DNA of 64,000 nt from Paraflavitalea pollutisoli (lineage in GTDB: Bacteria; Bacteroidota; Bacteroidia; Chitinophagales; Chitinophagaceae). The stretch is taken from positions 3,092,202 through 3,156,201 of the forward strand of contig NZ_JARKMX010000008.1 in the NCBI RefSeq assembly GCF_029360705.1. Reading direction: 5' to 3'. A program made the position numbers and the translations under genes. This document shows positions 40,873 through 43,551 of this stretch, piece by piece (the stretch's first letter is position 1; each line of letters starts with the position of its first letter). The notes beneath the pieces were generated by a model that saw nothing but the letters and a program-made list of their open reading frames with translations, searched no databases and was not told the origin of the DNA.

Positions 40873-41148
40873 ATGACTAAGGACGAAAGATACCTGGGCG
40901 TAAAACAACTGATTGAATCGGGACACATTACTGAATTCAAGCAGATCTTCACATTTCTTCCCAAGACGGTACTGGCGGGAGACCTTGGCACCAACAATAA
41001 CCGCATGACGCGGCTCATCAACAATGTGCAGGAATTTACCCTGGGCGAGCTGGACCGCATCAGCCAGCTCATCGATGTGCCGTATGACGCCATCAACCTG
41101 CTGGTCAATAATCAATTCAAGAAAAGCAAACAATTCGGTAAAAAGTAA
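40873..41148 (+). CDS. Small protein, possibly helix-turn-helix DNA-binding
   Basis: 91 residues, helical, with the pattern DLGTNNNRMTRLINNVQEFTLGELDRISQLIDVPYDAINLLV, which resembles the Cro/XRE type of helix-turn-helix where a Thr-Asn-Asn recognition stretch precedes a conserved LxELxxIAxxL helix. No other domain. A G-rich ribosome site (GAGG) lies just before the ATG. It has two palindromes upstream (40613-40629 and about 40764-40785) that could be its own operator. Regulator role is inferred; target unknown. Confidence 0.6.
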   Translation: MTKDERYLGVKQLIESGHITEFKQIFTFLPKTVLAGDLGTNNNRMTRLINNVQEFTLGELDRISQLIDVPYDAINLLVNNQFKKSKQFGKK

Positions 41149-41330: not shown

Positions 41331-41501
41331 ATGAAATTGCCAGGTACACTACTCAGTGCGATCCTGATCGGCATTGCCGTTCAAACAACTACCTCCTGTA
41401 AAAAGGAGAAGGATGAACCCACCGATAAGGAAAAGCAGGAAGCCAAGGAAGAGGCTTCTAAAAAACCGCCCTACTATTGCCCTGCCTGCGGCATGGGTTA
41501 A
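41331..41501 (+). CDS. 56-residue lipoprotein-like peptide with C-terminal CPACGMG, probable RiPP precursor
   Basis: A short gene that is easy to miss. Residues 1-23 are a lipoprotein signal peptide with lipobox TTSC, so Cys23 would be acylated. A charged linker rich in Lys and Glu (about 24-45) follows, then KKPPYYCPACGMG at the very end, with Cys50 and Cys53. It lies 38 bp upstream of a DUF692/MNIO enzyme. A short exported peptide with a Cys motif next to such an enzyme is the typical layout of a RiPP precursor (methanobactin, bufferin and chryseobasin types). The exact match to a described precursor family cannot be tested here. Confidence 0.7.
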   Translation: MKLPGTLLSAILIGIAVQTTTSCKKEKDEPTDKEKQEAKEEASKKPPYYCPACGMG

Positions 41502-41539
41502 TAATTATCACCTATTCCCGTACTGATTAATTTCACCCA

Positions 41540-42670
41540 GTGCCCCGAATTTTATCATCAGTTGCTTGCAACCTCGATCGTCACATGCTGGAAGCTTGTC
41601 TTCCTTTATTGGAAGAAGCACGGGTGGAAGCGCTGGAATGGTCTTTCGATGTACTGTACCAAACAGCGGAAACCCCAGCCTGGTTCCATGACCTGCTGAC
41701 TGCATTCAGCAAGGAGGAGCGACTCATAGGTCATGGGGTTTTCTTCTCCCTTTTCTCGGGCAGGTGGCTGCCCGAACAGGACGTATGGCTACAACACCTG
41801 CGCACCTGCTGTGCCACTTTTCACTTCGATCATATCACCGAGCATTTCGGATTCATGACAGGCACCGATTTCCACCAGGGGGCGCCACTCAATATTCCCT
41901 ATACCGCCAGCACCCTGGCCATCGGGCAGGATCGCCTCAAAAGGATCTACGAGGCCTGTGCCTGCCCGGTAGGTCTCGAAAACCTGGCCTTTGCGTATAG
42001 TATCGATGATGTACAACGGCAAGGCAGCTTTCTGGATGAGCTGCTACATCCCATCAATGGCTTTATCATTCTCGACCTGCACAACCTGTGGTGCCAGTTG
42101 CACAATTTCTCGATCCCCTACGAGCAACTGATCCACCTGTATCCGCTCGACCGTGTCCGTGAGATCCACATCTCCGGAGGTAGCTGGGACGATTCACTGC
42201 TCGAAACCGGCCGTCGCATCCGCCGCGATACACACGACGATGCTGTACCTGCGGCCGTATTCGACCTGTTCCGGCAAACGATCCCTCGATGCCCGCACCT
42301 GAAATATGTGGTCATGGAACAACTCGGCAATGGGCTCACCAGCCATAAAAGCAAACAACAGTTCTATGCCGATTTTGTAACCATGGCATCGATCGTCGAC
42401 ACCGCCAACCAACAGCGGGAAGCAGGGGCAACACATGCTTTCCTGCCTGCAGAGCAGCTGTACCTGGGCCAGCCCCTGGAAGATGAAACGCTCTACCAGC
42501 AACAGCGTGAACTGGCCAATATCCTCGAATCCGCCGGTTCTTTTGACGCCGCCCGCCACCTGTTGCTGACTTCCTCCCTGGCTGGTACGGCCTGGCACGT
42601 CGAACAATGGGATGCGGCCATGATCGAAACAGCCGTTAAGATCGCCCAGAAGTGGAAAGAAGGGTTTTAG
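41540..42670 (+). CDS. DUF692/MNIO multinuclear iron oxidative enzyme, probable RiPP-modifying enzyme
   Basis: 376 residues from GTG 41540. The TIM-barrel DUF692 fold is shown by the ordered motifs LIGHGVFFS (His65), DHITEHFGF (His98, Glu101, His102), GLENLAF (Glu147, Asn148), LDLHN (Asp179, His181, Asn182), REIHISGG (His210), DTHDDAVP (Asp230, His232) and VVMEQ (Glu260), which supply iron ligands in MbnB, TglH and bufferin enzymes. These enzymes oxidise Cys or Asn of small peptides. Usual members are about 280-300 residues; this one has about 100 extra residues at the C-terminus, which may replace the separate partner protein of other systems. Its likely substrate is the 56-residue peptide upstream. 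Confidence 0.85.
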   Translation: MPRILSSVACNLDRHMLEACLPLLEEARVEALEWSFDVLYQTAETPAWFHDLLTAFSKEERLIGHGVFFSLFSGRWLPEQDVWLQHLRTCCATFHFDHITEHFGFMTGTDFHQGAPLNIPYTASTLAIGQDRLKRIYEACACPVGLENLAFAYSIDDVQRQGSFLDELLHPINGFIILDLHNLWCQLHNFSIPYEQLIHLYPLDRVREIHISGGSWDDSLLETGRRIRRDTHDDAVPAAVFDLFRQTIPRCPHLKYVVMEQLGNGLTSHKSKQQFYADFVTMASIVDTANQQREAGATHAFLPAEQLYLGQPLEDETLYQQQRELANILESAGSFDAARHLLLTSSLAGTAWHVEQWDAAMIETAVKIAQKWKEGF

Positions 42671-42741: not shown

Positions 42742-43551
42742 ATGGTCAAAGGGCAAAAAGTGGTGGTCGTTCTTCCGGCTTACAATGCGGCACGTACGCT
42801 GGAGCAAACCTATCGGGAGATCGACCGGTCGATCGTCGACGAGGTGATCCTGGTGGATGACGCCAGCCAGGACAATACCATCGAGGTAGCGCGTCGCATC
42901 GGCATCCGCCACATCATTCTCCATGAGCGCAACACAGGCTATGGTGGTAATCAAAAATCCTGCTACCGGAAAGCCCTCGCATTAGGTGGCGATATCATTG
43001 TCATTCTTCATCCCGACTATCAATACACGCCGGCGCTGACCGGACCCATGGTGCACCTGATCGCCAATGGCGTATACCCGGTGGTGCTGGGGTCGCGCAT
43101 ACTGGGGAGGGGCGCTTTGAAGGGTGGCATGCCGCGCTATAAATATGTAGCCAACCGCCTGCTTACGCTGATACAAAATATCCTCATGCGGCAAAAGCTG
43201 TCCGAATACCATACCGGCTACCGGGCTTACCACAAAGACGTGTTGTTGTCGGTCCCTTTCGAACACAATTCCGATGACTTCATTTTCGACAATGAGCTGC
43301 TGGCACAGATCTTTTTCAAAGGCTATGAGATCGCTGAGATCACCTGTCCCACCAAATATTTTGCGGAAGCTTCTTCCATCAGCTTCGCACGAAGTGTAAA
43401 ATATGGCTTGGGCGTACTGCGGGTGAGCTGTCAGTATTTTTTGCAGAAGGCGGGGATAGCGCGGACCAGGTTGTTCCAACCAGCAGCCAGCGACATGTCC
43501 AGGGCACCATCACCCGGATTGCCTACCCTTGCGAAGACCGATATTCCCTGA
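42742..43551 (+). CDS. Family 2 glycosyltransferase (dolichyl-phosphate-sugar-type)
   Basis: 269 residues. GT-A fold with VVVLPAYNAARTLEQTY at the start, the nucleotide-binding VILVDDASQDNT (about 36-47), the acidic DxD-like HPDYQY and the acceptor region GYRAYHKDVL. No membrane segment is obvious except a weak one near the end, so it may transfer sugar onto a lipid carrier at the membrane. It is 71 bp downstream of the MNIO gene on the same strand; whether it belongs to that system is open. Confidence 0.87.
   Translation: MVKGQKVVVVLPAYNAARTLEQTYREIDRSIVDEVILVDDASQDNTIEVARRIGIRHIILHERNTGYGGNQKSCYRKALALGGDIIVILHPDYQYTPALTGPMVHLIANGVYPVVLGSRILGRGALKGGMPRYKYVANRLLTLIQNILMRQKLSEYHTGYRAYHKDVLLSVPFEHNSDDFIFDNELLAQIFFKGYEIAEITCPTKYFAEASSISFARSVKYGLGVLRVSCQYFLQKAGIARTRLFQPAASDMSRAPSPGLPTLAKTDIP

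Follow-up and report, generated by a model that had tools for sequence, protein, structure and literature searches.

In a bioRxiv preprint, Chen et al. (2025) describe a subfamily of MNIO enzymes with precursor peptides ending in CPxCGxG (PMC12636315). As reported in its main text, DybH from Dyadobacter crusticola, acting without a partner protein, forms a macrocycle and a hydantoin in the CPACGMG tail of DybA, with a loss of 4 Da, the same mass change being given for ChsAH and HymAH, and the minimal unit consists of precursor and MNIO only. Precursors from Bacteroidota other than Chryseobacterium have an additional conserved Cys, that of the lipobox, which in DybA was found by mass spectrometry to be lipidated (triacylated in E. 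coli), and the class was named 'DAG-RiPPs' (PMC12636315). The chryseobasin system of Chryseobacterium (ChrA/ChrH/ChrI), as described in PMC10214503, is a larger cluster that includes ChrI and yields an S-methylated, +10 Da product. More distant are the bufferins and oxazolins (BufABC, HvfABC), with thiooxazole or oxazolone products and a DUF2063-type partner.

We analysed a 64,000-nucleotide stretch of the Paraflavitalea pollutisoli genome (the window), in which a 56-residue ORF (MKLPGTLLSAILIGIAVQTTTSCKKEKDEPTDKEKQEAKEEASKKPPYYCPACGMG; 41331–41501, + strand, in the ORF list of the window) lies 38 bp upstream of a GTG-initiated, 376-residue ORF on the same strand (41540–42670, +), just as in the initial annotation of a gene with a TTSC lipobox and a CPACGMG end 5' of a DUF692 enzyme. 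Sequence and conservation point to a lipoprotein-type signal peptide in residues 1–22 (41331–41396, +), which starts M-K-L-P and contains a hydrophobic stretch followed by the predicted lipidated Cys23; the predicted lipobox has Thr at −3, where Leu is classical, and Cys23 opens a C-x-K segment with Lys25 at +3 (41397–41405, +). The conserved core motif CPACGMG (residues 50–56 with Cys50 and Cys53; 41478–41498, +), identical to the tail of DybA, is the predicted macrocycle and hydantoin site by homology to the chemistry described in PMC12636315. The peptide matched NF050125, 'chryseobasin-related MNIO class RiPP peptide', over positions 1–56 of 56 (84.1 bits, E 8.2e-24, cut-off 40), and scored below the cut-off of 50 with NF050124, the chryseobasin precursor ChrA model (27.2 bits). 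We therefore describe the gene as encoding a DybA/ChrA-related lipoprotein RiPP precursor.

The window unit resembles DybA/DybH and ChsA/ChsH (Chitinophaga sancti), as these are portrayed in PMC12636315, in its minimal precursor–MNIO composition and in its predicted SPII-type signal with a conserved Cys; it also has the C-terminal CPxCGxG and adjacent MNIO of DybA/DybH-type DAG-RiPPs, a helical C-terminal enzyme domain and no obvious partner gene. It comes from a different genus, and the comparison is with the published descriptions. With chryseobasin it shares the CPACGMG core and an MNIO subfamily with a C-terminal extension, whereas ChrA, according to PMC10214503, carries an SPI signal and has no lipid Cys. 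Bufferin and oxazolin precursors are likewise MNIO-modified, exported and at times lipoproteins, but differ in core motif as well as in partner and products. Given the same anatomy as the units in PMC12636315, and one match each to Lgt and LspA in the genome, we assign the window unit to the DAG-RiPP kind, and consider it highly probable that the pair is a minimal two-gene unit of the DybA/DybH type. The curated models and the experiments on counterparts in PMC12636315 favour the initial reading of a RiPP system whose product would be membrane-anchored and Cys-modified.

The downstream gene encodes a ChrH/DybH-like MNIO (DUF692) enzyme. A profile search with PF05114 gave 96.9 bits (cut-off 25), establishing MNIO membership, and an AlphaFold2 model (mean pLDDT 90.9) found TglH, MbnB and 3BWW as best PDB matches, indicating an MNIO fold. 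The metal-binding motifs noted initially are complete: the nine presumed iron ligands (H65, H102, E147, N148, D179, H210, D230, H232 and E260) were invariant in all 19 aligned sequences, namely the window enzyme, the enzyme of locus L004 and every other full-length family homologue except that of genome G280 (17 of 18). Moreover, those covered by phmmer alignments face identical residues in 3BWW and in TglH chain 8HCI. Residues N175, D242 and H244, listed in PMC13419390 as the putative third iron site of HvfB, would correspond to N148, D230 and H232 of the window enzyme. With NF050165, the ChrH equivalog model, the enzyme scored 395.4 bits, below the cut-off of 600, so that identical chemistry is not guaranteed; together with the NF050125 match, this ChrH-like score upholds the relation to the ChrA/ChrH group raised in the initial annotation. 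NF050165 is described as a 'chryseobactin maturase' and the precursor models as 'chryseobasin', which looks like a naming slip, chryseobactin being an unrelated siderophore.

The ChrH model has a length of 363 positions and its alignment covers residues 13–373 of the enzyme, so that the long C-terminal extension is characteristic of the subfamily. Alignment and models place the extension at residues 269–376 (42344–42667, +), which were all-helical both in the whole-enzyme model and when residues 266–376 were modelled on their own; a Foldseek search for a known partner fold with this second model returned nothing from the PDB at E≤0.001. The initial suggestion that the extension stands in for a partner protein is reasonable insofar as the same helical domain, encoded separately as MelHc in the mel cluster, is required for activity in the account of PMC12636315; the models lack the strands of an RRE-type partner. 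Scans of nine neighbouring window proteins revealed no partner family, DUF2063 had no match anywhere in the genome, and the lone DUF1772 (ChrI-type) match lies ~239 kb from the pair.

The genome encodes a second DUF692 enzyme (L001:718–2268, −, contig C6; 516 aa), also with a long C-terminal extension, in which no Pfam match was found. An 85-residue ORF (L001:2273–2530, −), which includes CKPCISGSAC and shows no evident signal peptide, ends 4 bp before it, and the two possibly form a different, perhaps undescribed, MNIO–precursor pair.

Membership of the ChrH family raises the alternative that the same pair makes an S-methylated (+10 Da) product of the chryseobasin type, its enzyme using SAM as ChrH does, and ArlAH is described as yielding both products (PMC12636315). 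We regard this as very unlikely, since the window enzyme falls under the ChrH equivalog cut-off, the two genomes above that cut-off in the phylum sample described below have precursors that by eye look to be of SPI type, and ChsAH, from Chitinophaga, gave −4 Da (PMC12636315).

In 294 genomes of the family (101 genera, drawn evenly from a larger group), the enzyme was matched at E≤1e-20 in 20, in 19 of them at full length, and the gene pair is patchily distributed. A precursor-type peptide directly adjoins every one of the 19 full-length enzymes, so the occurrence of a small CPACGMG-type gene next to orthologues, proposed initially as a check, was confirmed; 18 of these peptides end in CPxCGxG-stop and the other, in G149, in the variant CLACGMG. 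CPxCGxG-stop, searched with a pattern whose last codon also admits TGG, turned up in 55 of the 294 genomes, which makes the loose pattern unspecific by itself and its mere presence little informative. Exact CPACGMG-stop was found in just one of the 274 genomes that lack an enzyme match (G271); it lies there at the end of a contig, which could explain the absence of an adjacent enzyme gene. Five genomes of the same genus include three with the pair, one with remnants (G162) and one with neither (G259, 93% complete). At the G162 locus (L088) the upstream small gene is intact; the precursor has been lost along with the 5' portion of the enzyme gene, of which a decayed remainder is left. Within the 8.76-Mb P. 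pollutisoli genome (G000), other substrates were considered and discarded, the window peptide being the sole CPxCGxG-stop; a backwards-pattern control likewise occurred once.

CxxCG resembles the halves of zinc ribbons, and the peptide might on that account be an ordinary small lipoprotein with a zinc-knuckle-like CxxC in its CPxCGxG tail, the DUF692 enzyme acting elsewhere. Strict adjacency and joint loss of precursor and enzyme speak against this, as do the match to the curated RiPP model NF050125 and the homologous pairs shown to react in PMC12636315, and we give it almost no weight relative to a dedicated precursor–enzyme unit.

Comparison of 21 neighbourhoods, each no longer than 20 kb, using gene products of at least 100 aa, revealed none besides the enzyme in more than three genera (antisense ORFs inside the enzyme gene set aside). 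Five neighbour clusters of that size not overlapping the enzyme gene were common to two or three genera (2–5 of the 21 neighbourhoods); the two scanned are large families, one of ABC-transporter ATPases, in which two dissimilar proteins were put together, and one a sigma-70-type factor. The neighbours in one genus include atpD and an ATP synthase epsilon gene. With few neighbours common to several genera, and the two scanned belonging to large families, neighbours were rejected as a clue to function. In the window itself, a 91-residue HTH-like gene (40873–41148, +; weak HTH_26 match, 16.6 bits, cut-off 22) lies just 5' of the pair and a family 2 glycosyltransferase gene (42742–43551, +) directly 3' of it, each in such a position within the genus only (four loci).

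The initial annotation had also raised metal binding, and the product could act as a surface or periplasmic copper or iron buffer like the bufferins and oxazolins, its modified core binding the metal. MNIO relatives do make copper-binding peptides, and the DybA product keeps a free thiol (PMC12636315). The same source describes that product as devoid of the aromatic heterocycles of methanobactin and bufferin, and the nine neighbouring window proteins scanned include no metal-related family; we found no support for the suggestion and judge a buffering role unlikely.

To define conserved features of the precursor, we compared 20 principal precursors (19 distinct sequences), these being the 19 beside full-length enzymes and the one at the contig end of G271. 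Their core is nearly invariant (C 20/20, P 19/20, A 17/20, C 20/20, G 20/20, M 19/20, G 20/20) and their linker highly variable. Ser-Cys-x-Lys is invariant (20/20), the Cys followed by x-Lys having been taken where there were two candidates (L084) and a single candidate being present in the other 19. More than one precursor occurs in 6 of the 19 full-length family loci (G225, G101, G001, G125, G280 and G240), and likewise in L004. Apart from G001, each of these loci, L004 included, has a precursor with a CGRG end (CPPCGRG, CITCGRG or CPACGRG) in the most upstream place and one with a CGMG end beside the enzyme. 'CGRG' does not appear in the main text of PMC12636315, and the literature searched yielded no mention of CPPCGRG, CITCGRG or CPACGRG. 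The extra CGRG precursors lie in L072, L073, L081, L086 and L087 (at about 8.6–9.8 kb in enzyme-forward orientation) and at L004:4002–4307, and some look by eye to be of SPI rather than lipoprotein type.

Beyond the family, a tail-type peptide was present near the enzyme in 12 of 16 loci from named genomes; no convincing precursor was seen in the other four (L010, L013, L016 and L019). Five of the 12 (L005, L006, L009, L014 and L018) are labelled Acidimicrobiales (Actinomycetota) and have ChrH-like enzymes with CPACGMG or CPPCGLG tails shortly 5' of them; these loci come from metagenome bins and may be mislabelled. An RR pair is found in three of these five precursor N-termini, and 'Actino' is absent from the main text of PMC12636315. 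In a wider phylum sample, the enzyme occurred in 6 of 395 genomes, so the cross-phylum set rests mainly on the named-genome loci. Five of these six have a precursor; none was seen in the sixth (L157), where the enzyme match begins about 410 bases from the contig end.

The invariant Lys at +3 recalls surface lipoproteins. It was present in 21 of 27 SusD-like proteins of the genome compared to 5 of 30 BamD proteins from 30 genera (Fisher tests, which ignore kinship; the SusD-like sample was the best 30 of 103 matches, 3 of them without a recognised lipobox, and the lipobox finder misplaced a few). SusD proteins are taken as surface lipoproteins in PMC5080379, which gives the Capnocytophaga export signal as C-x-K-(D/E)2, Lys-Glu alone being weak there. 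The window sequence, C-K-K-E-K-D-E, fits that signal partially, and, Lys-Glu alone being a weak signal, surface display is a prediction. We found no mention of this Lys in the main text of PMC12636315.

The signal peptide is also conserved. With one sequence per genus, mean identity was 46% among 10 precursor signal peptides, 23% among linkers and 28% among BamD signal peptides (29 of 30 parsed), for proteins of similar divergence (enzymes 58%, 9 genera; mature BamD 53%). A start M-[KQRHE]-[LIV]-[SP], a motif picked after inspecting the sequences, was found in 16 of 17 distinct family N-termini and in 12 of 12 precursors from outside the family, with the start chosen by us where an earlier one was possible (7 of 20 principal and 5 of 12 outside precursors). 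The outside set comprises Bacteroidota and loci labelled Myxococcota, Deltaproteobacteria or proteobacterium; the five Acidimicrobiales-labelled precursors, which lack the motif, are excluded from its count. The motif was found in 3 of 9 extra precursors of family loci and in none of the 55 control lipoproteins or 81 generic signal-like N-termini; a family-trained position score put 4 of the 12 outside precursors below the best control. Since codons at the conserved positions vary synonymously, the constraint looks like one at the protein level.

One reading of this constraint is that the signal peptide has a second job: the MNIO would recognise it, besides the seven-residue tail, as a hidden leader, which might dock on the C-terminal helical domain of the enzyme. 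Modification would in this way be coupled to export and, with C-x-K, the ring would come to lie on the cell surface. A seven-residue tail is reported to suffice for modification on GFP (PMC12636315), so any second role of the signal peptide is hypothetical, and we consider this one unlikely. The signal peptide appears constrained beyond apparent export needs, which sits uneasily with the statement in PMC12636315 that tail recognition relaxes selection on the N-terminus; we found no mention in its main text of a conserved start across Bacteroidota and Myxococcota/Deltaproteobacteria-labelled precursors.

By analogy with its counterparts, the window pair would perform the same chemistry and lipidation. 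The precursor would be translated with its lipoprotein signal peptide, and in the cytoplasm its C-terminal CPACGMG would be bound in the multi-iron TIM-barrel site of the MNIO, which with O2 would bring about a four-electron oxidation with Cys53 at its centre. A bond between the sulfur of Cys50 and the former beta carbon of Cys53 would close the macrocycle, and a hydantoin would form from the following Gly-Met amides, leaving one thiol free and giving −4 Da; methylation appears unlikely in the clade of the window enzyme. After export of the modified peptide by Sec, Lgt would add a diacylglyceryl group at Cys23 and LspA would cut off the signal peptide; a third acyl chain may follow. We infer that the product would be a lipid-anchored peptide bearing the modified ring on its unattached end; it would probably reside in the outer membrane, possibly exposed on the surface.

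The window pair would add another genus to the recently described class of lipid-anchored RiPPs. Features beyond the known unit type, namely Lys at +3, the conserved signal-peptide start, the CGRG second precursors and the Actinomycetota-labelled loci, look worth testing, and possible surface export through Lys +3, the Arg-containing tails of the second precursors and the constrained signal peptide may offer comparative handles on the role of these peptides.
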